Source: Acorus gramineus (taxonomy: Eukaryota; Streptophyta; Magnoliopsida; Acorales; Acoraceae). From it: DNA of 64,000 nucleotides. The stretch covers positions 10,790,268 through 10,854,267 of the forward strand of contig CM060849.1 in the NCBI GenBank assembly GCA_030737835.1, written 5' to 3'. The position numbers were made by a program, and so were the translations under genes. The notes under the pieces were generated by a model. The model was not told where the DNA came from and ran no database searches. It saw nothing but the letters and a program-made list of their open reading frames with translations. Shown here one piece after another: positions 321-39,176 of the stretch (its first letter is position 1; every line of letters starts with the position of its first letter).

Positions 321-942
321 ATATATTTTTCGGGTCCTTGAAGGACCAAATAAAAAAAAAGGATCCATGTATCCCAGCAGGAACATGTAAATTATGATTA
401 GATTTCACCATCATCATCATAATGAAGAGGATTTAAAGATTAATACCTCATTGACAAAGGTCCACCGGCCATTATGCCTCAAATATGCTCCAGTTGTAGC
501 AATATTGAGAGCATCAATTTTATATATTCTCGTTGCCAAACAACGATTTTTTTAAAATATCATATAACTCAACTCAATGGCATAGCATCATTACCCGAAG
601 TAAATGCATTTTATTTTATGTTCGCCATGGAAGTTGTGGTCATGAATAATGAGATCATGATTTATATAGTTGAAAGTACAACAATCATAGAGTTTGTAAA
701 ATATCTCAAATCACTAGAAGTGATTTGCTATTAAACAAAAGCATAATTGAAGGGAAAAGGGTTGCAGAACAAACCCCTAACACAAGGAAAATGATTGTTA
801 TGTATTTGGTGCTTAAAAATATGGTCACGTACCTGATGTACGATCAGACTTTTATAATTTTTATAATTATAATTTTTCTTTGTTATCTAAAATCCATTTT
901 TCTTATTTTTATCTTATTTATTTCATTTTTTTTTTTACAAGA

Positions 943-3900
943 ATGGCTATGGTTGGTGACATTTGTCTAGCAGACAGCGCTACAACACATACGATCCTAC
1001 GAAATAAACAATATTTCTCGACATTGACATTAATCAATGCAAATGTTAATACCATTTCTGGTACTACGAAATTAATTGAAGGCTCCGGAAGAGCAAATAT
1101 AATATTACCAGGAGGTACAAAATTTTGTATTAATGATGCATTATATTCAGCAAGATCCAGAAGAAATCTGCTAAGTTTTAAGGATATCCGTCTTAATAGA
1201 TATCATATTGAGACTATCAATGAAAACAATATGGAGTATTTATGCATTACTTCAATTGTTTCAGGCCAAAAACATATATTAGAGAAACTTCATGCTTTCT
1301 CATCTGGGTTGTATTATACAACCATAAAAACAATCGAATCATATGCTGTAATGAACCAGAAGTTCTATGATTCAGATATTTTTACACTTTGGCATGATCG
1401 TCTCGGGCATCCAGAATCTACAATGATGCGTCGAATAATTGATAATTCATTTGGGCATTCGTTAAAGAACCAGAAGATTCTTTTACCTAATCACTATCAA
1501 TGCACTTCGTGCTCACAAGGAAAATTGATAGTTAGACCATCCCCTACAAAAGTCAATGTTGAGTCACCAACATTTTTGCAAAGAATCCAAGGGGATATAT
1601 GTGGCCCAATCCACCCCCCATGTGGACCATTCAAGTATTTTATGGTATTGATAGACGCATCTGCTAGATGGTCGCATGTTTGTCTATTATCCACTCGGAA
1701 TGCTGCATTTGCAAGACTACTTGCTCAGATAATCCGATTACAGTCTCATTTTTCGGATTATCCTATAAAGTCAATACGCCTTGATGGAGCTGGTGAATTC
1801 ACATCGAAAACTTTTAACGACTATTGTATGTCGCATGGCATCGATGTTGAACACCCTGTTGCTCATGTGCACACCCAAAATGGATTAGCTGAATCATTTA
1901 TTAAGCATCTTCAGCTAATTGCACGTCCTATGCTTTTGAGGACAAAATTACCCGTTTCAGCTTGGGGTCACGCTATATTGCATGCAGCAGCATTAGTTCG
2001 CCTTCGGCCAATTGCTTATCATCAATATTCCCCTTTACAGCTCGTACTGGGTCATCAACCAAATATTTCACATCTTTGAATTTTTGGTTATGCTGTACAA
2101 GTTCCTATTGCCCCTACACAACGAACTAAAATGAGCCCTCAACGTCGATTGGGAATTTATGTAGGCTTTGATTCTCCTTCTATTATAAGATATCTTGAAC
2201 CATTGACAGGGGATGTTTTTACCGCTCGATTTGCGGATTGTCATTTTGATGAGACAATATTCCCGTCATTAGGGGGAGAAAATCCGTCGCCAGAAGAACG
2301 ACGTGAACTTACATGGAAAACTCCATCTTTGTCTCATCTTGATCCTCGCACTCATCAATGTGAAACTGAAGTGCAATGTGAAACTGAAGCGCATCAATTG
2401 CCAGATGTATTCAATGATGCAGCAAAAGTGATAAAATCACATATTCCAGCTGCTAATACTCCAGCTCGAATTAATGTTCCAATAGGAAAAATTGTTAATA
2501 TGCCGGCTAATGAATCAACAAAAACACGCCTGAAGCGTGGAAGACCTATAGGCTCAAAAGATTCAACTCCCCGAATGAGAATAACAATGAAGAATAATTC
2601 TCTAGCAGAGTATGAAACACTTGAAAGACCCACAATAATAACTCCTACAGAGGAAGAAGTCCCTGAAGTGACACAAGTCCCTGAAGAGACTGACGTCCCT
2701 GAAGTGACGCCCGTGCATGAAGAATAAGTACATGGAAATGAAGAAATTTCCATAAATTATGCAAATTCACAAATATTGTGGGATCGAAAGCAAGTGCTTG
2801 TTGATGATATATTCTCATTTGCAGTAGCTACAGAAATCATTTCAGATAATGATTTAGAACCACGTTCAGTGGATGAATGCAGACGAAAAAATTGTTGGCC
2901 ACAATGGAAAGCTGCTATTCAAACATAATTGGATTCACTTGCAAAACACCAAGTATTTGGACCAGTAGTCCTAACCCCTGAAGGTGTTAAACCAGTAGGA
3001 TGTAAATGGGTGTTTGCGAGAAAACGAAATGAAAGAAACGAGATTGTTAGATACAAAGCTCGTCTTGTGGCACAGGGTTTCCTGCAGAGACCTGGGATAG
3101 ATTTTGAAGAGACATATTCTCTGTGATGGACACAATCACATTTCGGTATTTAATTAGTCTTGTAGTCTCAGAAGGACTTGACATGCAGCTAATGGATGTG
3201 GTTACTGCATATTTATATGGAAAATTAGATACCGACATTTATATGAAAGTTCCTGAAGGACTAAAATTGCCTGAAGCAAAACCACGAAACATGTACTCAA
3301 TCAAGCTAAGACAATCCTTGTATGGGTTAAAGCAATCTGGACGAATGTGGTATAACCGTCTTAGTGAGTACTTAATAAAAAAGGATATGTCAATGATCCA
3401 ATATGCCCCTGTGTATTTATTAAGAAAACAGAACTCGGATTTACCATTATTGCAGTATATGTTGATGATATTAATCTAATTGGGACTCCTGTAGAGCTCG
3501 AAAAGGCTTCCGAATATCTGAAAAAGGAGTTTGAAATGAAAGATCTTAGAAAAACAAGATACTGTCTCGGCTTGCAAATTGAGCAAAGTTCAAATGGGAT
3601 ACTTGTTCATCAAACAACATATGTTGAAAAAATCCTGAAGCGTTTTAATATGGACAAATGTCATCCATTAAGTACTCCAATGGTAGTAAGGTTACTTGAC
3701 CCAAAGAGGGACCCTTTTCGTCCAAAAGAAGATACTGAAAATCTTCTTGGTCCTGAAGTACCATATCTTAGTGCAATTGGTGCCTTATTATATTTGGCCC
3801 AATGCACTAGACCTGACATTGCATTTTCAGTTAATTTATTGGCTAGATTTAGCTCTGCACCAACTCGAAGGCATTGGAATGGTGTGAAGCACATTTTTCG

Positions 3901-4468
3901 TTATCTTCGTGGAACGTCAGACATGGGTCTATTCTATGCAAAGGATTCCAATAATGGTGCACAACTAAAGGGTTATGCAGATTCAGGATATCTTTCAGAT
4001 CCTCACAAGGCTCGCTCACAAACAGGCTATGTATTCACTTGCGGTGGCACAGCAATCTCTTGGCGATCTACGAAACAGACTTTGGTCGCCACGTCTTCTA
4101 ACCACTCTGAGATTCTTGCACTCCACGAAGCAAGCCGGGAATGCGTGTGGATAAGGTCTTTGGTTCATCATATTCGTACTGCATGCGGACTATCTCTCAT
4201 TACAGATGTTCCAACAACTATATATGAAGACAATGCAGCATGCATTGCTCACATCAAAGGGGGATATATCAAGGGTGATAGAACGAAGCATATTTCTCCA
4301 AAATTCTTTTACACTCATGAGCTCCAGCAGAGACATGAAATTGATGTTCAACAAATTCAGTCAAATGACAATCTTGCAGATTTGTTTACTAAAGCTTTGT
4401 CGACATCAACATTCAAGAAGTTGGTGTATGAAATCGGGATGCGACGAGTTTGCGACCAAAATTCTTGA
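943..4468 (+). pseudogene. copia pol polyprotein (PR-INT-RT-RH), broken
   Basis: Starting at the ATG at 943, an aspartic protease with LADSATTH is followed by the GAG-pre-integrase zinc-binding region (HDRLGHP, then CTSCSQGK). The integrase core comes next (DICGP, LDGAGEF, HTQNGLAES). Reverse transcriptase begins near 2930 (GCKWVFARKR, KARLVAQGF) with YVDD near 3450, and RNase H ends the protein (GYADSGYLSD, YEDNAACIAH, DRTKHISPKFF, LADLFTKAL). In-frame stops lie at 2077-2079, 2725-2727, 2926-2928 and 3124-3126. A frame change lies between about 3420 and 3480. The 3536-4468 stretch is intact for 310 residues. A dead copy, fairly young judging by how readable it is. Confidence 0.9.
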
Positions 4469-6317: not shown

Positions 6318-9300
6318 TTAGTCCTCCAAGGCATACACAACGGCCGTTCTGCTTGGAGTGTAAACTTGGAATGATCTGGGTCGATCATCATAATATCCAT
6401 CCTGCAAATCAGGACAGTAGTTATTCTCAAGTTTCAGTGTATTTTGAGTGTAATATATGAGATGCTGTTAACTAAAATAATCTTACTGTGGTGAAATACT
6501 CTGCTGCAGGATCAAGTCGACCGAAGCCACCGAATAGCTTGTCATCAGAATCCAAAACAACCTGCAGAGTAAGTTGGTCAATTATCTAATATCTGTATCC
6601 GATCTGAAAAATATCCGTATCCGATGTATACTATAAAATTATATAAGTTTGTATTATATATTGTTTATATTCATTATTTTGCATGATTAATCACTTTTAT
6701 GAAAATTGAAATAACCATTATATTCTCTATGTATGATCTCTGAAAGAGTGAGTAAATCCTAAAATCTTGATTTTAATTCTCATATATGTGCATTGTTGTA
6801 TTTTCTTGTAAGGAACATTAACTGAATCATCCCAAATTGGTCTCCCTGCATGGACTAAATGGAATCTTGATAATCAGTTCTGCTATATTTGGTGAGGATA
6901 ATTACCTTGTATTTTCCAGGCTTTAGGCATCCGACTCGGTAATCGAAATAACTATTTGTCCAATGGAAATTGAAAACAAAGACCAAGTTTCCTCGCTCAA
7001 AAATGACCATTCTATTGCCTTCATCTTTTCGTGATATGTATCGGTGCTCAGAGGTCATGAACTGCAATGACATTGAAAACAGATTCTTTGGGTTATACAA
7101 CAGATGATGAGTGAAGGCAGGCGATTCCATCAACAGAATTAAAGAAAGCTGCAATATATATGGAAATGAGCAAAGATGGGAACTCTGCTTCTACATCACC
7201 AAAGAGTGCTCTGCTTCAATAAAATATAGAGTACTTATCAACTAATGTTTATAAAAGCAATAGAGCACAAGCAACTTCTCAGCCACTTAGGATGTATTAC
7301 AAAATCACAATTAAAATGTGTGTGCAATCAGGCTTTGGGATGGAACTCAAATCTGAGAAGCCATTACAAATTTATAATTTAGAAGCACTTCTGCATTAAA
7401 AACATTTCAAAATTGGAAATTGGTCAACTTTCTTGAGTCACAGATTTGAAAGAAGGTGACAAATTTAGAGCTCATTTATCAAAACTGAAACTTAAGAAAT
7501 ATAAAACCTTGGCATAGAATTCAACATCAAAGAATAAATGTGTACTTAAATAAAATGAGGTTTTGCAACAAATAAAGGGGCCATAGCTTGGAGCAATGAT
7601 AAAGTGTTTAGGTTCACAGGACAAAGTCCTAGGTGCGAAGTCCTGAGAGCAGTCAGTACTGTATTTAGTCTCTCCCCTCCTAACACTCTTCTACGCGGGA
7701 CTGCTCTGAGTTAGGTCTTATGTCCTTTTTCGCCTTTGCAATAAATAGGCAAAATTTAAAAATTAATAATTTTGAGGGCCAATTTATAAGTAGGTCATCT
7801 ATACGCATAATTATACATACTCCAATGCAACCCCAGATAACCATAGAACGATATTTGAGTGAGGTAAGAGAAGAAGGGAGCATGATTAACCTTATATGGG
7901 TTCCTATTATATTAAATTATATTCATGAGCCAAAAGGAGGCATAGATTATGTATCATTACATACCCCGTATGTTTCCTCAAGATGTTGCATTGCTCGATC
8001 AAACTCTTGCATTCCAAGGTATCTCAAATAATCTGCATCACCCTGCATTTGACCAATTAATATATCATAACTGACAGAAAATACTCTGAAGATGGTTACA
8101 GGAACAGAAAAATGATGCACCGGTACAACATATTACTCCATGGATCCCTAACATCTGATAAAAAACAAGTAACTGATGGAACAAATATCTTTCAATTATG
8201 ATTATTCCTATTCATTTAGTGTAATTTAGTTTTTTGGATCATCCATTGATCGAAGTGACAATATTTAACATTGTCAACAAAATGCATAACCTAGATATCC
8301 ATGTACACTTTTTTTTTTAAAGTACTTCAAAAAAGATGAAACTCATACACAAGAAATACTTATGAACCTCATATCTGAATCGAAAATTCATCCATATATC
8401 CAAATATATTGGTTCTAATTTTAAAGCATTTCATCCGTCTTTATTGCTTAAGCCATTACTTACCAGATCAAATCTACGCCGGCACTTATCAAAACTATAA
8501 TTATTCCCTGGAACAATCTTTCCATCTGAAAGATGTTCACCCCTTGGAAAATCTATCCACTCTGTGAGATGACAGGAAAGAAAACATTTGATAAAGTAAG
8601 TGATGGCATTCCAAAACTAGAATTGCAATATTAAATGCCGTACCTGGATGCCCAAATTCGTTTCCCATGAAATTGAGGTAGCCTTCTCCACCTAATCCCA
8701 TGGTGATCAACCTGATCATCTTATGCAGTGCTATTCCGCGATCTATTCTAGGAGTTGAAGGTCTATCCAAAGCCATATAATCATACATGTCCTATGCAAC
8801 ATTTCAAAAATTGATAATATAAAATCTAGTGCATAATAAAGAAAAAAATGGTGATCTTAAGCAATGAAAACTAAATTCACGAACAAAGTTTTTGCTAATA
8901 GTCCATTCAATCGTAAATAAGGATATTAACACTATATTAAATTGAAAAAAGCCATCTAGATTATTAGGCAAGATAAGATTCTCAGAGAAGGCTGTGTGTT
9001 GATTGCAAATAACCAGATACCAACTTTCACATTTGAATAACACATTAGCACACAGATACCTTGTCCATTAACCAGAATGCAACTGTTTTATCACCAACAA
9101 GAGCTTGATCATGGCTTTCAGCATATGCAACACATTTCTCCAACCATCTTCTATTTATAAGAGTTTGGACTATTTGACCCACTGACCAGTCCTCATCCTT
9201 CTTCCTGAATTAAACAAGAAACTAAGTTGTATGTTTTACAGGAAAGATAATGTGGGATCGCAAACCCAGTCAATCAAACAGGATTGATAAAAAATTATGC

Positions 9301-12300
9301 ATGTATGCAAAAGAATATTGTACCTCCATATAAGTTTATAGAGGGATAAATAACGCAGCGTGAAATGGATAAAAAGATCCAACAAGCGTTGAGATCTCAT
9401 AAGCTCCTTGAATCAATAAGGAATCCTTGAATCCACAAGGACAATAACAAAAGAAAATATAATTTTATTGATTGATCAAAAGTTGTCTCTCACAAAAGAT
9501 GGTGACACTTCTTATATAGGCCATAAATATTAAATACATACTCATAATATCAATTATGACTCTACTAAAAATAACAAAAATACAATTACAATGACAATTA
9601 TTAAAATCTAATAAAATAAAATAATAGATCCTAAAAATACTAAAATCATAACTCACCAATAAAAGTGATTATTATGATTTAAATAATGAGATTTGTCTAT
9701 AAATGACAAAATCTCATATGTAAAACTTTATTTTGAAGACAGATTTGAAATCAAATATTTTGCATTGATTTCTTTCCCAATCTATGCTACATCAATAACC
9801 CATTGTGGAAACAAAGTTCATATGCTGTGTTGGGTCATGCTTTATGTTGAGAGTGAAAAACACAGTTAAGCAATAACCTAATCATCCTAAAAAACTTCAA
9901 ACATATAGCAGGTATGCACCATCAATCATTTTCCCACTGCTCCAATGGAATTTACCTTATATTCTTCACCCAAAACAAATGTAGTACCAGGAATCTCAAG
10001 ACTTACTTGAGAAGCTTGATCCATTTGTCAGCTATAGCCATATGCAGGCGATAATTGAATCCCACACCACCTTCTTGAACGGGAATGCAGAATGCAGGCA
10101 TTCCGCTGACCTTTAAAACAAAACAAAATCATTTATAATAGCACAGGAAAGCCAATTTAGAGTACAAAGAACTTAATTTTTATTAGGTAATCCTTACCCT
10201 ACTATAATTAATTTTTAAGGTATGCAGATATACCTTTTTAGGTTAGCAAGATGGAGAGGATGAAAGTGTTCATGAACTGTCAATTGACTTGCCCCCATTT
10301 CTTGGATTATTTGTCAATTATGAGGCTGAGTTTTATTTGTATATTTAACCTTTACTAAGCAAGTCATGATAGCTAACCAATCTTTTTTTATGATATGGCA
10401 GATAGCAGGCTTGGACATAAAGTTTTCTTACATGAACTACTCTCTTCTTTCTTTTCTCTCTTTCTTTTTAAGCTTTCATTAATTAACCTTGGCTGTTTAA
10501 AAGTACTTGGAGAGAATTAAATAAAATAAACACAAATCAGACACGTGGCCTACAGCATGCTGATCTTAATTCTTATTGTCTGATGGAAAACCCATATAGT
10601 TTTATTTTACAAGAACTCTTATTTTTCTCTGTATTTTTTTGGGCTTCACTGGAAATTATCTTGGCTGCACAGTAGTGCTAAATGAACATATCACAAAGGA
10701 TATCACAAACCGTACACATGGTCTATAGCATCTCTATAAGAATATCACAAATCAAAAACATATGGTGTGTAACCCTCCAATCCTTCTTATCCAAATGCAT
10801 TATTTAGTCATATGACAAGGCAACTGCAGTAGCACATTAATTCAAAGACACATTGTGAGTCACAGCCGTGGGTGGCACTGCACTTACATCTTCACCAATG
10901 GAAATAGCTTCTGGATACAGTCCATGAATGAGATCATTGACAAGCATCAGATACACCATTGCATCCACATCAGTTGCAAATCCAAAGTACTCATTATAGT
11001 TTCCAGTAAATCCAACCTGCAAGCATGTAGAAAGGTGTATCACAGAATATTATAACCAAGGCATCCAATAAGAAGATGAGTAATGTGAATGTCATCAACA
11101 ACCCAAAAAGGAGGGAAAAAAAGTAGCAATCATTTCATATTCATTCTTAAATAAGTTCCATTTGAAGTGTGCCAGAAAAAAAAATCATGCTTATGTGCAA
11201 TATTGGACTGCTTCATGAATAATATACTAAAAATCATATAAATTACAGAATAACAAAGATTACGAAGGAGAATTAGAGATGATGAAATATTAAAGGATTT
11301 AAGTTTGTTAAGAATGAAGAATAATATTGGGTTACACAACTTGAAGAATGTTCAAATAGTATATAAACACATTTGGAAAACAAAAAAACACCAAAACTAC
11401 AAGCATGAAGCAATTAAAACAGTTCAAATCCCCCCCCCCCCCCCAAAAAAAAAAAACACCCCCACACACGGATAGCAATTCTTGCTACATATTTAAAATG
11501 TAATTTATGCTTACAGGGACAGCTTCACTAACCACCACAGTGGATATAATTAATGAATAGCATTTAGTAGAAACACAAAAAAACAAAAATGAAAGAAACT
11601 TCCATATCACCTGAAGCCCATGGTGAGTATACATCATTGAAGTAACACCATCAAATCTAAATCCATCAAATTTATACTCCTCTAGCCACCATCTTGCATT
11701 TGACAAGAGAAATCTTAAGACCTAATAAAACATTGGAAGATAATTTTAGCCAATATTTATCAAAATATCAAACTGCAAAAAAGCTTAAAAGTAAGGGTAA
11801 AGGGGCTGATATCAAGATAAGCTTTAGACCTCCCAATTTCCATAGTTAAAAAGGCGTGAATCCCACATCCAATGGTAGCCTTGTGATCCAGAGTGGAAGT
11901 ACTGTGTGTCTGTTCCATCAAACTGATTGAGTCCATCCAATACATTGTTTGATGCATGGCTGGAAATAACATATAAATCAAATTAGAGACCAAGATACAC
12001 GTTGAATATAAAGAACTACTTTTAAAATGAGGTAAACTGAAGGTGTATTATTACTACACAGAGTGGATTCAGAATCCTCCAAGAAACTTCATTAAAATTT
12101 ATTGTGTTAAAATTATCCAGCAAGAACCCCTTGTCTAAATGCAAGTTCTATAAAAAGCAAGAGGGACCAACAAAATTTCTTCAATAAAGTCGAAGGATGG
12201 ACAAGATGAAGGAAACAGAAAAAAGAGTTAAAGGGATGTTATGTTCCATGTTCAACCATGGATTATATGATATTCAACATCCACCCATGCCAAGTACAAC

Positions 12301-15300
12301 CATCAATCACTGCAATCAAATATCTGCAGATAAAAAAGGCATCACTTTGTCACGCATATAGCAGGGTGTGGGGAGGGAAGAGACTCGTCTGATCAAGGGA
12401 AAGAGACTCGCTTAAGCATTCCACTGTTTCTCCAAGAATAATCAAATATCCACACGAGTTTGTTATTTAATCACTTACAAAGTATACTTGTTTCAAAAAA
12501 CCACTTTATATATAAATAAATATCACTTCTGTGATTGCCATATGTTTTGTCTAGATTTCAAAATATCCATCTCCTGAGGATACTAGTATAGAAGAGCTAT
12601 AAATAGACAATATGATAAGATGGACATCTAATTTGGTAAATGGATATTAATTCAAAATATGGCGCACAGTAGGTTAATATCTTCAATGTAATTAAGTGAA
12701 GCGGACCAAATATGACCTAAGCACACAAAGTTTTCCGAACACTTTTATAATCTTATTATTCAATAGATTCCCATCAGGCCATTCCCATTGATGTCACCTT
12801 TGACATCCATATTCAGCTAGATTTATTAAATTTCTTCCTGTCTTTCGACCATTTCCCGACTTCTAAGCTATCATCAGACATGGGCAGACCACCACAAGTA
12901 TCATGTATTACTTCCTACATGATCTACTTTTGAATTTCTCTCAAGAACAGTCAGCCATTTCCGTGTTGTTGTTGTTGTTGTTGTTAGAAGCTCTCCAAAT
13001 TAGTTCAGTAATCTACAACATAATATAATCTGAATGGCAACATAAATTTCACATTAAAATCCAAAAGGTCACCTGTGCACAATATCCATAAGGACAAGTA
13101 GACCAAGCTCATGAGCTCTGTCAATCAAGGACTTGAGATCATCCGGTGTTCCAAATCGACTGCTGGGTGCGAAAAAATTTGTAACATGGTACCTAAAGAA
13201 AAACACCAAGAAACCATCATTTACTGATATAATAGCACAGCACAAAAACACTGGAAAATACATCCTCATACTCTACAGCACATGGAAACTATGATAGTTG
13301 AAATATTAACTCATCTGGTCATGCTATTAGTATTGTGAGTTTAACTTTTACAGAGAAATTACATCAAAACAATCTAATACTGCCACTATATAAAGCAGCA
13401 TTCTCTGTAAAAGTCAGCAAAGCTTGTGGATAAAGAGCCAACAATATAGAAAAAGATTGTGAATTCAAAAAAGAGGAGTATTACATTGTTATAGAAAATG
13501 AAACAGGAAAAGTCAACGCAATTCAAATTTAGAAGCATATGCCTATTTGAAGGAAAATTTCTCTTCTGAAAATTGGTGCTCCCCACCAACTTGCACAGCA
13601 CAAAGTCCTCTTTGGGATTTTATCCCAGGAACCTCCTCTTTGGAGGTATGTGGTGTTTATCACTTTATAATAATTGTTCCTTCTTTATATTAAGTTCATT
13701 GAAGAGAAAACATACCCAAAACTTGCGTAATAGGAATGCTCCTGAATAGCCATAATCTGTATAGCATTGTACCCAAGTCGTTTGATGCGGGGGAGAACAT
13801 CATCCCTAAAGCTTGTGTATGTGTTAATTTTTGGTTCCTGCATGTTAAACATTCAGCTTCAACAAGCAAACATAAATTACTTCCACATGAGGCAAAGACA
13901 TCATATAAGCTCGTGGCATGAATTTTGACTGCTATCAATTTCGTTGTCATGATTGACACATGCCGAGAATCCACTATTTGATGACATTCAAGTTATGATA
14001 CACTTAAAATATATTATACCTACCGAAAAAAACATAAAGATACACAGAATTTAAGTTTGACAGTAATAGTTACAATGGTTCAGAATTTTTGCAAAGCCGC
14101 TATTCAATAAGTTTATTAATGCTTTTCTGATGAATCATGACAGAAGGTAATTTAATTGAAAATAAATGGAAAAATGCACACCTTACTACTCATCCCAACA
14201 TGTGACTCATAAATTCTCAATGATTTTGGCGCTTTCGGCTGAGGATGTTGAAACACATATTTTTCCTGTGTAAAGTGGAGACATGCATGTTACGTCAGTA
14301 AAGAAAATGAGACCCACCATCCAAGAATATAAATATTATATTTGAGATATAAGATACACAAAAGCATCCCAAGTTTAGAACAATGGCAGAAGCATACATC
14401 TTCTGGAGGATCATAATATATGCCATTGTACGGAATTTCACCGGGGGGCTGTATGGAGAACTTGATCCAAGCAGGGATTGAGTCTTTCATCCCGGATGGA
14501 GTATCCATGCGTATCTATACACCAAAAGTGAATGAATTTTAATGGATAAATTATAAGAGCATAATCAGTTTCATGTTCGGACGACATGGTTGTTTCAGAA
14601 TGATAAGAAAAAACTTACCATTTCTCAGGAATATTCAAATAGAGAGAGTTTGTTATAATATGAACATCCTTGACCTAACTGGAAATTATGAATTTTCAAA
14701 AGAGGAAAAGCAATCCCAATTCAACAATCAATAGCAGGGCATGGGATTCCGCATACAGTTTGTTGGTCAATTTGGCTGGCAAGAAATAATGAAATATTCC
14801 AAAGGAAAAAATGTCACACAGAAAATCTCTGGGCTGGGATCCTGAACAAACTGATAGATTGGAGTCAGCATAAATTTGGAGATGGATCTATTCCCTTGGA
14901 TTTTATTTATTTATGTTGTCGGGGTGGGGGAGAGGGGTATGTAGAATCGAAGGGTGGGTTATATGGGCCTGTGAGGTTCATATTGTAAAAGAATCCAAGG
15001 AGACACTTTCCAATTTTGGGTGTTCACCATTTAATCATTGGAGATTCCACTTTATTTCAAAATACAAAGCACCTGATTATGGATACAGAAGTTAACAATC
15101 TGCAACTATAGATCCATCTAATCTGTGTTTCCAAGATAATCATTACCTTTACTCTAGATCCATGAGGAATCGGAGGTGAACCATCAGCATTGTTCGGAAG
15201 AAATACCTCCCATACACCAAACTCATTCTGCACATATCAAATTAATGGCCTCAGAAACAATGAAGTCATAAGTGGGCATATCAGATATATGATGAACTCT

Positions 15301-18300
15301 ATGTGAATATAGGAAATCAAATGTGTTTCCATATCCAGATCAAATCTTGCATACACGTTTCAAAAAGAAAATACCATTTTGTTAATAGAAAAAAAATTGC
15401 AACACAGTTCTATCTCTATTTTATCAACGTAAGTAGCGAGAATCAACTTTAAATTGCATTATTAACATGACTACTCAGGTCATAATATAATTTGAAACGT
15501 AGAAAAGTCTCCAAGTATTTTTTTTTTCAACTTAAAAATGTCAATATAGGAGTTCTAAACTCATCAAGGGATTTCTTGGAGGAAAAATCATGAGCATTAT
15601 TTACCATAAGGTCAGTGATAGGAATTAACTGTTTAAGATGTGTTTAGGCAAAGTTTAGACAACATCCAAGGATTTAGAATTAAATGACCGGCATGTGTTA
15701 TAATGATGGTGATAAGGAGGAGGAGGAGGAGGAGGGGAAATAAAACATGAATAACCTCGACATACTAGATGCATGTGACTTACCCGGGTCATAACATCTG
15801 CATTGGGATTCCAATTGTTGAAGTCCCCTATCAAAGCCGCCGCCTATTAAAGGATTAAATATTGTTTAATAAATAGAAACTGAATGCATTATTAATCCAG
15901 GTTACAACAATTTATGTCCTACAGAACTTAGTTTAAAAGCTTAGTAGATATTAAAAGGAAAAAAAACAAAGAACAAACATTGGGATTCCAATTGTTAAAT
16001 TCCCCTATCAAAGCCACCCACTGTTAAAAGATTAAATATTGTTTAATAAATAGAAACCGAATACAGGTTACAACAATTTATGTCCTAGAGAACTTAGTTT
16101 AGAGCTTGGTAGATCTTCAAGGGGAAAAAACAAAGAACAAGCATGTTAACCAATTTGAAAGTTCAATATGAGTCATTCTGAATACAATTAAGCGATACAC
16201 GTGTGATGCACAAAGGATAATCAAATTCATCTAAATCTTATAATCACATGTAAGGTTGAGATTTCAAATGATATTAAACAAGGGCATTCAATATGTCATT
16301 ATATAGTTCCTCCAAAAATGGATGAAGGAATAAGCCAGCTTTGGATACATTTGAAAATTCCACCACACTTTTTTTGAAGAATAGTAGGAAACCTACCACC
16401 ATAATTTATAAAGAATTAAAACTGGGTTACAGTTCCAAAGCAGAAAATGAATAAGTAGATGCACAATCTACATTGTAAGCCCTGTAGTAAAATTAAAAAA
16501 ACAAATTCTACAAGACATGTTCAGGATAATGCACAATTTTGTTCATTCGTATGAGTCAACTAGATACTATATAGTGTAGATTGGCATGCATTTTTATCGT
16601 TCAACAGTTCAACAGCTGCTTGCCAAGCCTGTGAAGTTCATACCATCTCTGCAACTATTAAAAATACACAGTAGATTTAAAATAAAAAAAAGGTTTCACT
16701 AGATTGCTTCCACAATCACAATCATGCCTCACTCAAAAATTGAAGCATAAATACTGCCAAGATGAAAGAGTTCAGTGCAGTCAGAAAACTGGTACTGTGC
16801 AACTTAGGCAGAAGATAGATCAAATTTAGCTATTCAGTTGCAACAATTCAAGAAAATAACACGTAAGAAAGCATGAAGATAAGATCCAATGTTTGAAGAT
16901 ATGATCCACAGATTTGGAAACAAATATGACAAAAATGTCACAAAACAGTTCACTATAATTGAAGAGCTGATACAAACCTTAGCTCCAGGTGCCCACTCTC
17001 TGTAAGTGATACCTGAGGCACTGAAAATTTGAATAGAGGTATATCAGAAACCTAAATTCTATAATCATAATAAAATCTGACCAATTTACAGCTTCAAAGA
17101 TTTCAGATATGAAAAATAACTAGAAGAAAGGAAAAGATACACATAATCATAACATGCAATTCATGAATGCAAGTGCATATATGTATATAAAACAAAGGAT
17201 TTCTGACAAAACTCCCTCTCATTTATTTTCTTTCATATGCCTTCTGTTTTGATTCAGAAGTCCTCCATAATGCCTCACTTGCATAGCATTATCTTTACTG
17301 AAGTGCGCTATGCAATCTGTCAACAGAAACTGACCTCCATTCTACCCCGACATCAATGAACTATGCAACCAGTACCAGTTTACCAAAAATAACAGAGCTC
17401 TTCCGTCTATGAATACATCAGGTATTGATATACATTCAAAGAGCACACTTCAACTTCAGTGCCCTGGATTTTAGTTATCCATCAAAGCTGACTGACATGG
17501 ACTAAAACTCTGGCAAATAAAAAAAATAAAAAAATATGTGGCAATGTGATCAAGGAAGGTGCATATGACAAAGGTGTACCAGTTAAATCATTAGTTAAAT
17601 GCAAAGCTCTAGAGATACTGAAACTGGGAACAAACTTAAATATAAATAACAGGCTTCTGCGGGAAGGGAAAAGTATATACCCACGGACAAAACCAAATTG
17701 TTCATATCCACGAGAAAATGCATCCAAACCACCTTCATGCTTATCGATCAGCTCACGCATGCTTTTGTACTGATTGAAGCTGTAGTTGAGAAATAATAAA
17801 TAACAAAAATCAAGGATTTAAAAATATTCAAAGTAACAAAGAAGAAACACATTGAACACAGAATCTAGTAAGAAAGACCTTGTCCAGAGCATTTGTAAAT
17901 TCACCTAGTTTTCTTCAAAAGACATACCTACCCACATTTGTCGATATTTAATCATATATCATGACTTAAAAAGGTCATCACCTAAGCAGCCCCACGTATA
18001 GCAGGTGCTGGAAGGGGAGATACCAAATGCGGTACAAACTTTTGATATATTTATTGCAGAAAGTGACAGCTCTCAAATACCTACCCAGGACTATGTCCTA
18101 TTATCCTGAACACTTTACATTGCTCTAAGAAATTGCCCGCATTCCTACATCACGACTTATAATCTATCAAACTGTTATGAACTTTTATCATTAATTCATT
18201 ACATCAAAGCATACAATATCATGGTGACACTTGCATGATCATATTTTAATTATAGACCAACAGGATAAATGCTAAATTTAAAAATACCAAACAATACTAA

Positions 18301-20980
18301 TGCTGCTAGTATTGTTGTATCTTTACTTATCGGCCAAGTATCATTGAGATATATATTTGCATGAATCAATAAGAATAAGATAACTGCATGTACAGGATGA
18401 TGCAAGAGTTTTTAAAGTTCAATAAGTATAAGGAGACATTTTATCTTCTGTTTACACTTCTTATGCTTTTTTCTTTGGAATTGTATCCCATTTTATCAAT
18501 GATATCTGGTGGTAGGATCTACCCTTTCTCAAAAAAAGGTTACATATTGTTGCTTAGTTCAGAACATACTAAATACCAGTAAATTATAGAAATTCAGTAG
18601 AAGATATACCTATAAAATATTCAAAGTTTCCACTGAACACACATGAATTGACTCCATGTTATCTGACGGTGATTCTTTAGTATGGATTATAATCTAAATA
18701 GTAGAGTTTACAATATACTTAAAATAAACATGGTTTAACCATAACTGAATTGATCCTCCATAATTTTCCTATTTTTTTCATTTTTTCCAATATCTAAATG
18801 ATATCAAATGCATCCATATTGGATTCATATTGGCCAATACAAACAATATAAATGATAAGTATATTCATCATTACCGGTAATCAAGATGTCCTTTATGTGC
18901 TTTCAGAAGGGGATCGATTTCATATATTCTCTGTCCAGTGCCAGGAGGAGGAATAGTCCTTGGCTTAACATCAATACTTCCACCACTTGATAGAAGAGTT
19001 TCACCCTCCACCTCTTCTGTGATGGATTCTCTGATAGCTGAGGTTTGATCAGCAACGATCTTGCCCTCATCTTCAACATTTATTTCACTTGAAGCAGCTG
19101 ATGACTGATCAGTCCTCTTATTATCCTCGTTACCGAAGGGCAAACCAACCACTTCTTGCAATCCCTACAAATCAACCCACAGACCAATTATATGGCCAAT
19201 AGATTATAGAAACAGAGAAATTGATCTGGTTAACAGGAATACCCAAAAACAATAACGTCAACACAATTACAAATACATTGCCCTTCGAGAAGATACGTAT
19301 TTAATTGATCCTTTAATAGGAGCTCTATCTCACATCCGCTAGAGGGATAGTTTATTACACATCCATGCGAACCTAGGCGGTGCCCAGGCTTCTAGCAGCC
19401 TAGGCATGCTCAGGCACACCTAGGCAATACTTAAATTGCATATGAATCTTATAATTTTGTAACTTAATTGATATACATTATAGAAAGAAACAAGAACAAT
19501 AAGTATAAAAAAAGAAACAGGGATAAAATTTAAACACTATGAGATGGAAAGAAAGGAAAAAAAAAAACTAGCTAATATATGACTGGGGGAGTTAATAAAG
19601 AAGAACGAGAAATGTGACTTCCTTAATAGCATTAAAAATTAGTAAAAAAACCCAAAAAGAGAATGTGAGAAGTACATAAGGCCATGCAAAAATGTCAAAG
19701 GATAGGCGACCAAAATTACTGGTTTGTAAGAAGGCCAGTTGATGGTTCAACAGTTGTCATTCCTCGCATGTCCTTTCTTCAATTGGTCATTACACTCTGT
19801 TGTAAAGGCATGACATACGGTTTGCCACTCGACAAGGTTGTCCAAGAGGTTATTTGTACGGAATGCATGCTTTGAAGTGAAGATAACGAGCAGAGGATGG
19901 TTCTACAGTTCTGCCATGTTTAGAAGAATTTTTGGCGAGAATGGAAGAGGACTTTTGGTGTCCTGCATGCAAAAATTGGTATGAACGACAAAATGTACAG
20001 TCCTGGACTCAGACTATTTATGCCCCAGGAACCATTTCCATGGGGCTTTCTCAAGTTGACACTAATGTACCTCCTGGAACTCCAGCCAGACTGATATCCA
20101 GCAGATTCATTGTACTCATAGCATGGTATTTATCCAAGATTTGAAATGACAAACCTCGATCTCATCAGAAGACGTCTCAAGACTCTCAATTGGATTTGCC
20201 GAGGACGACCCATCATCTGTCATACCCGGAATCAGTAACTTCCATGATGCCGCCACCTTTGTCGATTTTGAATCAGAGTTATGAGAAGAACTCGTGGCAG
20301 ATACCTTCCCTACAGAGAAGCTCCTCATAAAATATGACCATAACACCAAAACCGATTAATGTAAATTTGTTTTTATCAACAGCGAATACTAACTAAAATA
20401 TTTCCATTCTTGAGAAATACAAATGAAATTGACAGAAATGTGAACAACCACATTTTGGAAATAATAACAATTTCACTACCCCCATGAATCGGACAATACT
20501 ATCCTTGTCCCTCCTATTCACTTTGTCCATCAGATTAATAAGAATTCCTTTCAATAACATAAATCAACAGAAATCCAAAACACACACAAACACATAGATG
20601 GCACACCCATTAAGTGATTGATCAATATAAATGAATATATTAACCAAAAGATTCCAACTTTCACACTTCAGACACATCAAACTCCACAGACACTCAAAAG
20701 AAACCCAACTCAACTCACGAAACCAAAAAATAAAAAACACCACCAAATGCATCAAAAAGAGCCTCTTTAACATTTATCATCAAACAAACAAAAAAAAAAG
20801 TAATGAAAACAGAGAGAGAGAGAGAGAGAGCATACGAGGAACAGATCTCTTTGAGTCGAAGAGAAAGGAAAAACTGGATCTCCTCCGGCCACCAATGGAG
20901 ACCGATCGGCGACAGGGAAGGTTCGACGGTCGGGCGGTTGCAGCGGCCAATCGGGTCCCCGACGAGAGACTGAAGACCAT
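6318..20980 (-). CDS. SBE2: 1,4-alpha-glucan (starch) branching enzyme, class II (A-type), plastidial
   Basis: Makes the alpha-1,6 branches of amylopectin in plastids. The 22 exons join in frame to 857 codons plus stop, normal for SBEII: 20836-20980, 20155-20309, 18875-19164, 17681-17779, 16978-17020, 15784-15843, 15147-15227, 14398-14514, 14182-14265, 13716-13837, 13073-13192, 11830-11959, 11611-11721, 10888-11016, 10007-10110, 9060-9204, 8644-8791, 8464-8561, 7965-8042, 6906-7061, 6487-6561, 6318-6401. Residues 1 to about 55 are basic and Ser/Arg-rich, like a transit peptide, then an acidic Ser-rich stretch. A CBM48-type region ([19 protein letters not shown]) precedes the GH13 domain. GH13 motifs are DIVHSH (435-440), [10 protein letters not shown] with nucleophile D506, GED with acid/base E561, and AESHDQ with H628-D629. 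The phrase [15 protein letters not shown] marks class II rather than class I. All catalytic residues are present. Start chosen at MVFSL by similarity to other SBEII starts. Confidence 0.95.
6590..6790 (+). repeat. dispersed repeat copy in SBE intron 20
   Basis: This AT-rich stretch (ATCCGTATCCGATGTATAC, then AAAGAGTGAGTAAATCC) closely resembles 62530-62725 in the same orientation. It lies between exons 20 and 21 of the branching enzyme gene. The CCGATCTGAAAAATATCC theme suggests a non-autonomous transposon remnant. No coding content was seen. Confidence 0.6.
7575..7735 (+). mobile_element. tRNA-derived SINE-like insertion in SBE intron 19
   Basis: An A-box-like TAGCTTGGAGC near 7584 and a B-box-like GGTGCGAAGTCCTG at 7632-7645 are spaced as in a Pol III promoter. 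They are followed by a pyrimidine-rich stretch and a T-rich end. This matches the plan of plant tRNA-derived SINEs, but no clear target duplication was found. Confidence 0.5.
9351..9794 (-). mobile_element. solo LTR (family A) in SBE intron 15
   Basis: On the minus strand it runs from TGATGTAGCATAG to CACGCTGCGTTA, with an internal GCCTATATAAG promoter-like motif. It is flanked by a near-perfect 5-bp duplication (ATAAA at 9346-9350, ATAAC at 9795-9799). The same family occurs at 43560-43934 with the same ends. No internal retrotransposon domain is next to either copy, so both are best read as solo LTRs. Confidence 0.75.
14752..14988 (+). pseudogene. LINE (L1-type) ORF2 C-terminal fragment in SBE intron 7
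   Basis: The plus-strand frame reads [14 protein letters not shown] from 14761 and stays open to the stop at 14986-14988. This phrase is typical of the C-terminal region of plant LINE ORF2 proteins. The insertion is antisense to the host gene and lies between exons 7 and 8. It is a 5'-truncated relic. Confidence 0.65.
15801..16142. repeat. tandem duplication covering most of SBE exon 6 and its upstream intron
   Basis: Copy A (15801-15977) and copy B (15978-16142) share the exon segment, the acceptor region and the AT-rich intron with the landmarks TTTAATAAATAGAAAC, ACAACAATTTATGTCCT and AACAAAGAACAA. Copy A holds the first 43 nt of functional exon 6; the 17 nt at the exon's 3' end (15784-15800) were not copied. 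The copies differ by scattered substitutions and small indels, so the duplication is not recent. Confidence 0.9.
15979..16020 (-). other. duplicated exon-6-like segment, possible cryptic or alternative exon
   Basis: It has an acceptor (TTTTAACAG) and a potential donor (GTTTGT), the same donor hexamer used by exons 2 and 5 of this gene. The segment is 42 nt (14 codons), open in phase 0, and reads [14 protein letters not shown] against [14 protein letters not shown] of exon 6. Inclusion would keep the frame. Whether it is spliced in is unknown. Confidence 0.5.
19330..19450. repeat. CCTAGGC-rich repeat in SBE intron 2
   Basis: The words CCTAGGC and close variants recur (CCTAGGCGGTGCCCAGGC, GCCTAGGCATGCTCAGGC, CACCTAGGC), forming partly palindromic DNA. 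Such sequence is common in plant transposon remnants. No ends or target duplication were found. Confidence 0.4.
19684..20144 (+). pseudogene. unrecognised coding-like fragment inside SBE intron 2
   Basis: The plus strand carries two adjacent coding-looking stretches: 19684-19875 ([19 protein letters not shown], then EVICTECML) and 19932-20144 ([20 protein letters not shown], then [13 protein letters not shown]). A stop and a frame change separate them. [10 protein letters not shown] has the look of a zinc-binding pair. It is antisense to the host gene and ends about 10 bp from exon 2. I do not recognise the family; a captured gene fragment or transposon relic is likely. Confidence 0.4.
20811..20830. 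repeat. (AG)n microsatellite at the start of SBE intron 1
   Basis: About ten AG units lie only a few bases inside intron 1, next to the donor of exon 1. Confidence 0.8.
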
Positions 20981-22717: not shown

Positions 22718-22794
22718 AGGGGGGGGTAGTCGATACGGAATTTGATGGATTTCTGTGAACATTAATACATTATTTAAGTGATGGACTTTTGTAA

Positions 22795-23010
22795 ACTTTT
22801 CAAACTTTCACAGACTTTTGCAGACTTTCTTAAACTTTTGCAGACTTTCACAGATTGAACTTTCACAGATTGACTCTCATGGACTTTCACAGACTTTCAC
22901 ATACATTTGCAAACTTTCACAGATTGACTCTCACATATTGACTCTCACATACATTTGCAGATTTTCACAAATCACTCTCATGGACCTTCACAGACTTCCA
23001 CATATTAACT
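22795..23010. repeat. degenerate minisatellite, ACTTTCACAG-type units
   Basis: Variants of CAGACTTTCACAG and ACATTTGCA recur many times with 10-22 bp spacing. The open frame through it (22818-23069) is a by-product of the repeat and not a gene. Confidence 0.8.
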
Positions 23011-35365: not shown

Positions 35366-38300
35366 CGCCCAGCAAACCACCAATTAGAAAATGGAGAGTT
35401 ATGTAGCTGTACAGAAACATGCTAATAAGGGTGATTATTGTAAAATCAGGCATCCAAAAAAGCATAAACGTTTGCATAATAATACTATGAATGCAACAGC
35501 ACAAAAAATGTTAACCTAAGTGTGATGAATGTAAAGCCCACCTTCTAAAAAACAATACGGCTTGCCACTTTCATACTGGTTTTCATACTGGTTTTCATAC
35601 TGGCATCCTTTTCTGCTGGAGGATCTTCTCTTACGAACAGAATTCTCAGTAGACGCCGTTCTCTTTTGATGCCACTCCTGATAACAAGAGTTTGCGGAAG
35701 CTTAAGTCACAGGTCCTGCAAATTTGTAGCCTACTAGGAATTGATGGTAATATGATAACGCACCACAAAAATGGGAGAACCCCCACAGCATAAAATTAAT
35801 ATAAGGTTTGCAAAATCCAATGTGCTAGACATACAATTCAGAGTAACTATTTGCAGATGCAGCAAAATCACAATAGTAAGTGTATTATGCAGATGGCAAA
35901 TATATATTCTCAGCAACAAATGATTGATGTTTTACTAAATCAAAGCTGAACCGATAAAACTTGCAATGGTTACATTTTTTTTTATAGGTGTTCTTTGTTG
36001 TTTTATACCTGCCTAATGTAGTCATTTTAGTTAGAGTTTCTCTTTGTTTTTTGTTGTTTTTCCTATTGCCTATTTTTGTTGTTTTTACCCCTTGCCTCTT
36101 TGACACCATCACCCCATACCCCTTGCCCGGGTGGTGTTTATCTTTGTTTTGACTCTATACCCGAAGTAGAAGCGAAAGAAAAAGGGTCCGTCAACTAGTT
36201 AAGGAACGAGAGCGATGCATTGCCGGAGTGAGGGTTTCACTGAAAGAGCTAAGGACAGACCGAAGGTGATCCGTGACTCATGCATAATCAAATTAATCCG
36301 ATGGAAAAGGAAAAGAGTAAACCAAACGAAGTGAAGGTGTGGTGCGGAGCATAGAAGCGACGAAGGAGCGGAAGAACTGAGGAAGCGACGAAGGAGTGGA
36401 TGAGGAGGTGACCGAAGGCGACCGAATAGAAACGTAGCGGAGGCAAAGACCAAAGTGACGGTTGAGTGAACGACCGTGCCTTAGCCTTAACAACTATCAA
36501 GAATAAAGTCAACATTTTGTCTAATGGGGCGTCTACTCAGGTTTTAGTTCATATTACTAAAACACCAGCACGAGTGCAATTTCTCAGTAAGGTGAATTGC
36601 CTTAATTATTAAGCACCAATCTCATCAACTCAGCATGCCCAGGTTCACTATGATTAGGGACCTCAATATCAATATCTGCAAGGACGTAGTTTTTGACTTT
36701 TGCATTTAATCACAGGCATAAACAAATACAACCATGTAATACTGAGAAGAACAAAATTTGTCAATCCCAATGAACAATTTTATTTTTTGTAAACCCAATG
36801 AACAAAAAAAATTATGAGACCCAATGAACAAAAATTATCTTGAATTATCTAATCATATCATATGACCAATAATAATATTTTATAATAATTCTACAAGTAA
36901 GTGAGTTAAATGATAAAAAGAAGATCATCAGATGTAGGTAAACCTTTCAAAACTACATGTTAATATAACAACCAAGAAAGTTTATTGCATTCAAATACAA
37001 ACAAACCTGCCAACTTATGCAAAAAGAGAATAAAACAACAATGTCATACTTACCCTAAAAATCCTAATCAATGGTCCCCTTCTTTGCTTTTTCTTTTTTA
37101 ACCAGTAATCATAGACAGCTCCCACAATATCCTTATCTACTAAATGCGAACATAGACTGGTCGCTTTTCCCTTGTTGGCAACATTCTCTGGACTATCATA
37201 GGCAGCCTTCTCAAACTGATGTATTATCCTCTCAAAATCGTCCTCTGAAATTCGAAGATGATGCCCATTCTCTCCGTTGATAGAATTTCCATGCAACTGT
37301 TGGATCCATTGCTCATCATCAGAGTCCACATCATAGTATGGATGCTCACTATTTAAAGCCCTTCCAATTTCATCAGCCCCCACAGAAATATACACATCAG
37401 GCCTGAAGAAAGGAACACTGTCATCATTCACTTCATTACTGAAAATCTCTCGCACAACAGGAATGTGTATTGTTTTCTCAGGAACTTCTTGGAAATTCCG
37501 CTCACAGCACACCCTGTGGAGTTCTTTGAACACCGTCCAGTCCCATCGATCACAGAATTCAAGCTTCCAACTGCTATCCCCTGTCCAAATCATGGCAAGT
37601 GTACGCTTGTTGGTAGAGCTGTTTCGTGGCTTCTGAGCCTTGTGAAGGAATCTTGTCGAACCTCCAGAGTCTTTCACTGCCAAACACCATTTATTATCAC
37701 CTGAGCGTTCCAACATAACTTCAGCACCTTCTTCCCTCCAGCACCGATCTGAATCAGAAATCAAGATGTTTGCAGAACATCGAACAGAGTCTACGTTGTG
37801 CTTCAGATATACCAAGGATGACTTCAGTTCCCTGACCTTCTCGTCAGTATAACTCCTTTTAAGGGACTTTCTCTGCTTTCGGTTAGAACCAGGAGAAGAG
37901 AATGCTAGGCCATCTCGGAAAGACAGTGACTTCGAGAGCGAGTTGAATCCCATACCACAACTGAATTCAGAATGTAAAAGCCCACTGTACAATCCCTTCA
38001 ACCTAGGACTCCGAACTCTTGCAGAACTTAAAGAGCTCCTCTTCCTCATAGGTTTGGACAATTTCTTGATGGGCTGATCGACTGTGTCAAGAACAGACAA
38101 ATCCACCAAATAAGATCCATCGATACTTCCCCCTTCACTCCTCCTCAGAATGGGGCTCAAAGGACCAATTTCAGTGGAAACAGAGGTTTCGTGCTCCAAA
38201 AACGCAATTTTGAACTGACCCAGATACCGAAAGCTAAAAAACAACTCCGAATGCAAGCTCTCAAAATAGGAAGGAAGGGAAGAAAAATTCATGGATACCA

Positions 38301-39176
38301 ATGGCACAAACTTTCTTGCACCAAAAAGCGTGCAAATCCCGTAAGAAGAGGCATCTCTCACAGATTTAGCCTGAAAACAAGAGAACCCATATCAGAAATT
38401 CCTAAGAATAAATAAAAGCAACAGTGAATGAAAAACAAACTTACAATTCGAGGCCTCCAAAAAGGGCAGAAGTGAATCCCATGCTTTGAAAACACGCTGG
38501 CGACTGGACAAGAAAACAGAAACGCTGCCAATCTTGACAACTGTGCATTCAAAGAACTCATCATCCAATTCAAAATCGAGACAACAGTACCACAAAACCA
38601 ACCCTCGCCGCACCGCCGTGACTCCACAAACACGACGAGCGACATCCGGTCAGAGAAACAAAGACACAAATCATACTCCGAAATGCCCGCCTTCGAAGTG
38701 AACCCCTTCACATCATCAAAACCCCTAAGCCGGTGTTCCGCCACCTCCAAAGACGGCGCCTTTGTCTTCCTCCCTCGCTGTTTCCGCATAAAAGTGATCC
38801 CGAACCTCCGGTCCTCCATCTCCTCCATCGAAACCACGCGGCCCCCTCCACCATCCGATCGCGGCCGCGACCTCGACCTCCGCCGCTTACGGCTATAGAC
38901 AGCCCCGAACCTCCTCACCTCGTCCAACAAAGACTCCCCGACGGACTCGGGCGGCGCGCCCACTTTCGAAGGCCGCCAGTGCTTGATCAGCCCCAACCAG
39001 TCCTCCTCGTCCCCTTGGCCGTCGACGTGGAGCGGTTTCTCGACGGGCTTCGTGGACACGCGTTTCCCCGACCGAAGAACCCTCTCCATGACGGAGTCCT
39101 CATCCCCGCCGCCTTTCGATGCAGATCTTGGAGGGACAAAAACCCTCGTCGACCTCCTGGTTCCCACCGACGGCAT
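33408..39176 (-). CDS. Enhancer of polycomb-like (EPL) chromatin protein
   Basis: Plant EPL-like proteins resemble the EPL1 subunit of the NuA4 histone acetyltransferase and act in the nucleus. Four exons join in frame to 847 aa: 38445-39176, 37054-38370, 35542-35677, 33408-33766. The start MPSVGTRRSTRVF matches the usual family start; an in-frame upstream ATG at 39347 is less likely. The N-terminal exon is basic and GC-rich, with RKRRRSRSRPRS. The EPL-type region includes YYDVDSDDEQW (about 589-599), FERIIHQFE (about 623) and VYDYWLKKKK (about 663). The C-terminus has a charged helix, EDEIREAMKGIREAQ and RRRRRAQILMKNAELAAYK, then a Gly/Pro-rich tail. Exon 3 encodes three tandem QYEN-type repeats from 12-bp units. 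The introns hold repeats. Confidence 0.88.
35334..35364. repeat. (TA)n microsatellite in EPL intron 3
   Basis: About 15 TA units follow a C-rich stretch (CCCCCTCCTCCCCCC) in the intron between exons 3 and 4. Confidence 0.9.
35678..37053 (-). other. EPL intron 2
   Basis: AT-rich except for 36150-36500, which is purine-rich with GCGACGAAGGAG-type words and overlapping open frames in several registers. None of these frames resembles a known protein. It may be an old insertion. Confidence 0.5.

Follow-up and report, generated by a model that had tools for sequence, protein, structure and literature searches.

Tandem exon duplication reportedly leads to alternative or mutually exclusive splicing (Kondrashov and Koonin 2001). 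In a potato RdRp gene, a tandem duplication over an intron-exon border is described together with a new intron that was detected (PMC4974935), and another source likewise connects tandem exon duplication with alternative or mutually exclusive splicing (PMC6071210). Here we describe a comparable arrangement in a starch branching enzyme gene of Acorus gramineus, located in a 64,000-nucleotide (nt) stretch of contig CM060849.1 (the window). The gene carries a partial second copy of exon 6, copy B, immediately upstream of the downstream copy, copy A, which runs into the intact exon 6. We lean toward the view that copy B arose by tandem duplication as a neutral cryptic exon and is mostly skipped. 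One study of wheat SBEIIa concerns induced splice mutants (PMC3424102). Among the titles and abstract openings listed in searches of the open-licence literature no duplicated exon in a starch branching enzyme was seen, and a search of the open-licence literature with the peptide string NNWNPN returned no match.

The spliced model of the gene comprises 22 exons with GT/AG borders and reads as a single open frame of 857 amino acids (aa) with no internal stop. Residues 180-854 of the product align to rice branching enzyme 3amk (phmmer, E=2.4e-267), and the N-terminal stretch that was scanned matches CBM_48 at 71.0 bits in one stretch; the branching-enzyme core and CBM48 module expected of starch branching enzyme II are thus both present. 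Bacterial GlgB models of NCBIfam scored below their cut-offs (best 260 versus 577 bits). We tentatively take the gene to be class-II-like. The features that concern us are as follows, with positions in the direction of the gene and a slash at exon borders and breakpoints.

20980..6318, reverse strand: coding part of the class-II-like starch branching enzyme gene (spliced model)
17020..16978, reverse strand: exon 5, 43 nt, donor AAG/GTTTGT (spliced model)
16141..15978, reverse strand: duplication unit B, the upstream copy in the gene, holding the end of intron 5 with the acceptor, plus 42 nt of exon 6 and the G next to them (repeat alignment)
16022..16021, reverse strand: acceptor AG of copy B, TTTTAACAG/TGG, with CAG/TGG as in the paralogue (paralogue alignment, acceptor scoring)
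16020..15979, reverse strand: candidate cassette exon of copy B, 42 nt, phase 0-0, no stop (spliced model, repeat alignment)
15980..15978, reverse strand: ATG shared at the duplication join (microhomology), which recurs at 16142-16144 (repeat alignment)
15978..15973, reverse strand: junction-spanning candidate donor GTTTGT of copy B (spliced model, repeat and paralogue alignment)
15978..15844, reverse strand: possible new intron of 135 nt, lying between copy B and exon 6 (spliced model)
15977..15801, reverse strand: duplication unit A, the downstream copy (repeat alignment)
15843..15784, reverse strand: exon 6, 60 nt, phase 0-0, acceptor TTTAATAG/GC (spliced model, acceptor scoring)

The duplication is head-to-tail and spans the intron 5/exon 6 border, so that it crosses a splice site. 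Its in-register repeat blocks (88 nt at 90%, 42 nt at 95%, and 26 nt at 88%) are ~90% identical overall, with 16 differences over 166 aligned sites plus indels. A 38-nt degenerate core, written so as to fit both copies, occurs at two places only in the window at up to 3 mismatches, against a mean of 0 in 100 shuffles. The preliminary description of this locus spoke of a duplicated exon 6; the tandem duplication is real and its coordinates hold, but since 42 of 60 nt were copied, copy B is a partial exon. Its further statements that copy B carries the start of exon 6 with an intact acceptor AG, that the 42 nt form an in-phase and stop-free candidate exon, and that exon 6 itself is intact within the 857-aa frame were all borne out. 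At the join the sequence reads CCCAATG/TTTGTT, while the left flank of copy B reads AACATG/CTTGTT and exon 6 runs on as CCCAATG/CAGATG. The ATG common to the break is what duplication mediated by microhomology, or slippage, would be expected to leave.

The genome has another gene of this type on contig C9 (L003/L012, G000:C9, about 5483669-5499556, the outer ends being extrapolated). With its exon borders set through extension of local alignments, exons 2-17 and 19-21 are equal in length to those of the present gene and have AG/GT borders. Over exons 3-17 the two genes share 541 of 594 residues, with a synonymous divergence (Ks) of 0.375 and a nonsynonymous divergence (Ka) of 0.046; over exons 4-17 the values are 0.396 and 0.030. 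The paralogue has one copy of the unit only, with no duplication in intron 5, and so supplies the ancestral state; it also polarises an 11-nt gap in copy B as a loss in that copy. On intron distances, the duplication is ~0.37 times as old as the paralogue split. An assembly artefact, with a second haplotype or a repeat collapsed or misjoined, is an extremely improbable source of the duplication: nothing was found in favour of it, the copies differ by ~10% with indels inside a 32.4-Mb contig (the genome spans 398.6 Mb over 137 contigs), and a search of the genome listed only this locus and the C9 paralogue, which has no repeat. Exact-pattern scans for relatives elsewhere, in viral_contigs and genome_contigs, found nothing, which is unsurprising for plant DNA. 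No near-identical intronless retrocopy, of the kind in which an isoform would be frozen, was seen among the 54 matches listed, a lower bound since 53 of 64 candidates were scored. Two further branching-enzyme relatives form a second pair (L004, G000:C4:1971710-1972627; L005, G000:C10:13271976-13272893); each matches over 302 residues within one open frame, at 69% and 66% identity, respectively, from which it follows that their exon layout differs from that of this gene.

The candidate donor of copy B takes its G from the end of the copied exon segment and its TTTGT from what, in gene direction, is the start of copy A rather than its end as had been supposed. The base at the left edge of copy B that corresponds to the donor T is a C, and the intron 5 of the C9 paralogue has T at that position. 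By parsimony the T is probably ancestral and the C a later change in copy B, and since T is the paralogue's state, the GT was probably already present at the moment of duplication; this polarisation uses a single site with a single outgroup, and at the adjoining base the paralogue differs. The earlier suggestion that the junction itself made the donor is therefore probably correct. A later C-to-T change as the origin of the donor, raised by the C at the left edge of copy B, is less likely given the T in the paralogue.

The hexamer GTTTGT is, as previously stated, that of the donors of exons 2 and 5, but its context here (AAT/GTTTGT) does not have their G at position -1. Scored against 41 donors (21 from this gene and 20 from the paralogue, whose first was omitted), it reached 3.9 versus a median of 6.99, with 4 of the 41 real donors lower. 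A duplex calculated with the U1 5' end gave -0.3 kcal/mol, and none of the 21 donors of this gene was weaker or equal. Under a matrix from this gene alone, 65 of 673 decoy intronic GTs scored at least as high as the copy B donor and 23 of 538 decoy intronic AGs as high as its acceptor; neither site is therefore rare by itself. Simulated breakpoints suggest that the arrangement is a mild coincidence: among 31,360 pairs, 33% placed a donor no worse than this one near the join, 10.3% gave an open exon in frame with such a donor, and 1.5% were in frame with a donor hexamer spanning the join. Among the 22 intronic acceptor-donor pairs of this gene in which both sites score at least as high as those of copy B (itself counted), copy B alone is in frame and open, in a count whose matrix included the near-identical acceptor of exon 6 and so favours copy B.

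We compared the acceptors using a matrix of 39 sites from the two paralogous genes, neither exon 6 included. Copy B scored 1.3, exon 6 -1.4, and the exon 6 of the paralogue 6.7; no real acceptor scored lower than copy B or exon 6 (0/39 each), and 15 of 39 scored lower than the paralogue's exon 6, which is thus average. With a matrix from this gene alone and exon 6 left out, the scores were 2.85 for copy B and 1.17 for exon 6. The exon 6 of the paralogue begins with TGG directly after TTTTCAG, and the CAG end and TGG codon of copy B match it, while the TAG/GCG of exon 6 is derived. The first-codon residue of exon 6 is not strictly conserved in the family, the rice branching enzyme differing there in an alignment. 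Copy B thus combines the better of two poor acceptors with a poor donor.

Several of these observations weigh against a mostly skipped copy B. Its acceptor outscores that of exon 6 and sits closer to exon 5, which counts against a simple dead copy and leaves room for inclusion or for a poison effect. Weak donors are also in use in this gene, two of which pair with U1 nearly as weakly (-0.5 and -0.8 kcal/mol), and 6 of its 21 donors match the consensus no better than copy B does (5/9). Furthermore, the 135 nt between copy B and exon 6 are rich in A+T (GC 0.237) and exceed the four shortest introns of the gene (82, 85, 108, and 132 nt). Given the better acceptor, the comparably weak real donors, and this interval, substantial inclusion of copy B is plausible.

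If copy B were a real and often included cassette exon, exon 5 would be joined to the better acceptor of copy B, and copy B to exon 6 via the new 135-nt intron, as in potato RdRp. The product would be an 871-aa enzyme with the ALIG(E/D)FNNWNPN segment of its CBM48 module present twice, which agrees with the preliminary description in that inclusion adds 14 residues in frame. The acceptor scores, the paralogue-like CAG/TGG of copy B set beside the derived TAG/GCG of exon 6, the open and in-phase 42 nt, and the detected new intron in potato (PMC4974935) all speak for this possibility, and the inclusion form still matches CBM_48 (76.1 bits over two stretches versus 71.0 in one). Nevertheless, we regard frequent inclusion as unlikely, since the donor is weak, the 42 nt show no constraint, and the derived changes at the start of exon 6 may represent one or two events only. 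A 14-residue repeat within a compact beta domain would also be likely to disturb folding of the CBM48 module.

A related scenario, to which we give slightly less credence still, is an acceptor handover in which the copy B acceptor (CAG/TGG) would have become the main partner of exon 5 while that of exon 6 decayed to TAG/GCG; the major protein would then carry the duplicated 14-residue CBM48 segment, or a weak new intron would tune output by retention and decay. Rather doubtful to a similar degree is copy B as a poison element, whose acceptor would capture exon 5 and whose donor would often fail, with the retained 135 nt leading to an early stop and mRNA decay that lowers enzyme output. Consistent with such an effect, the acceptor of copy B outranks that of exon 6 while its donor is poor, and a transcript that uses the copy B acceptor and is retained up to the exon 6 donor encodes 274 aa, the first stop being codon 31 of the copy B-to-exon 6 stretch. 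However, the coding frame has stayed intact since the duplication, which means that enough productive mRNA must be made.

Mutually exclusive use, in which an mRNA would carry copy B or exon 6 and never both, is very improbable. Inclusion (871 aa), replacement (851 aa), and skipping of both exons (837 aa) are all predicted to preserve the frame, which is compatible with alternative use, but mutually exclusive exons require full-length alternatives of similar length, and here 42 nt stand against 60. Replacement does lose ADVMTR, as had been proposed, since copy B is without those six C-terminal codons, and the replacement form matches CBM_48 at 56.4 bits rather than 71.0 (32.5 for the skip form). 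Of the mechanisms that could bar joint inclusion (a short spacer, the frame, or a competing RNA structure), the first two are disfavoured: four introns of this gene are shorter than the interval of 135 nt, which makes steric exclusion unlikely, and because both exon lengths are multiples of three, the frame imposes no exclusion.

We asked whether the persistence of copy B signals use. The preliminary description held that its frame and splice sites survive while the surrounding intron has diverged, but exon and intron have diverged alike (5 differences in 44 versus 11 in 122 aligned sites; p=0.77). With the paralogue as the outgroup, and with 24 gapped intron columns dropped to leave 116 ungapped intron sites, the changes private to copy B number 2 of 42 in the exon and 6 of 116 in the intron (Fisher p=1), and those private to copy A 3 of 42 and 5 of 116 (p=0.44). 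No constraint on the 42 nt is seen. Both exon changes in copy B alter residues (A to V and D to E). Under neutrality with 5% divergence in each lineage, the AG, GT, and open frame of copy B would all survive with a probability of 0.71, and persistence of these signals is therefore uninformative on use, either way. If all five exon differences are assigned to one copy, the probability of no stop is 0.84, and the three residue changes compare with a mean of 3.5. Selection on the 42 nt was considered and is unsupported, exon and intron rates being alike, at the low power that two changes afford. An unconstrained main frame would have remained intact since the duplication with p of 0.003 (6% divergence) to 0.03 (4%), from 1500 trials at each level, and the sequence indicates that the main gene has stayed functional over that time.

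Returning to copy B as a neutral and mostly skipped cryptic exon, we propose that a single tandem duplication of ~164-177 bp occurred over the intron 5/exon 6 border after the split from the paralogue, probably by way of ATG (or TG) microhomology. It would have set a shortened exon 6, together with an acceptor, 135 nt upstream of the full-length one, and the join, which is seen in the sequence and whose ancestry is read from one site in one paralogue, probably created an in-phase GT donor at once. In the pre-mRNA, the exon 5 donor would be contested by the acceptors of copy B and exon 6. Because the copy B donor is weak and without G at -1, copy B is most likely skipped in most productive mRNA, where exon 5 is joined directly to exon 6, and some inclusion would amount to splicing noise. 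Copy B appears to have drifted neutrally since, no constraint having been detected at low power.

Elsewhere in the window, a degenerate short tandem array of ACTTTCACAG-like units lies at 22784-22951, ~2 kb upstream of the start codon of the branching enzyme. A copia-type retrotransposon remnant occupies 880-4468 (forward strand), with GAG-pre-integrase, integrase, and beta-barrel domains in its first frame and, in the frame at 3536, a reverse-transcriptase match under its cut-off (29.0 versus 31.6 bits). Two frames at 50825-53775 (forward strand) match alkaline/neutral invertase (Glyco_hydro_100), and a frame at 37015-38361 (reverse strand) has an Enhancer-of-polycomb-like match barely over its cut-off (26.6 versus 25.4 bits).

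If copy B is spliced, it would represent a natural case of exon and intron birth through tandem duplication, with a donor made at the join and an age datable against the paralogue, and it would change the CBM48 module of a starch-shaping enzyme. Even a silent copy B may be wrongly merged into the protein model by homology-based gene prediction; a probe did match copy B, at E=0.32.

In its aligned exon lengths and AG/GT borders the gene resembles an ordinary plant starch branching enzyme gene and its C9 paralogue, from which it differs by the presence of copy B. As with the tandem-duplicated exons covered in PMC6071210, the homologous exons are adjacent and their intron flanks are of common origin; unlike the mutually exclusive exons described there, copy B is truncated (42 of 60 nt), with no exclusion via spacing or frame. 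The potato RdRp gene (PMC4974935) offers a nearer comparison, since there too a plant gene underwent tandem duplication across an intron-exon border, and the exonic piece of the upstream copy together with the intronic piece of the downstream copy made up the region of the new intron, whose branch site, tract, and acceptor were inherited. The potato donor came straight from the exonic segment and its intron was detected, whereas the candidate donor in A. gramineus spans the join and is known from DNA alone. On this comparison, copy B would fit the known gain of exons and introns by tandem genomic duplication, with potato RdRp as a close precedent.
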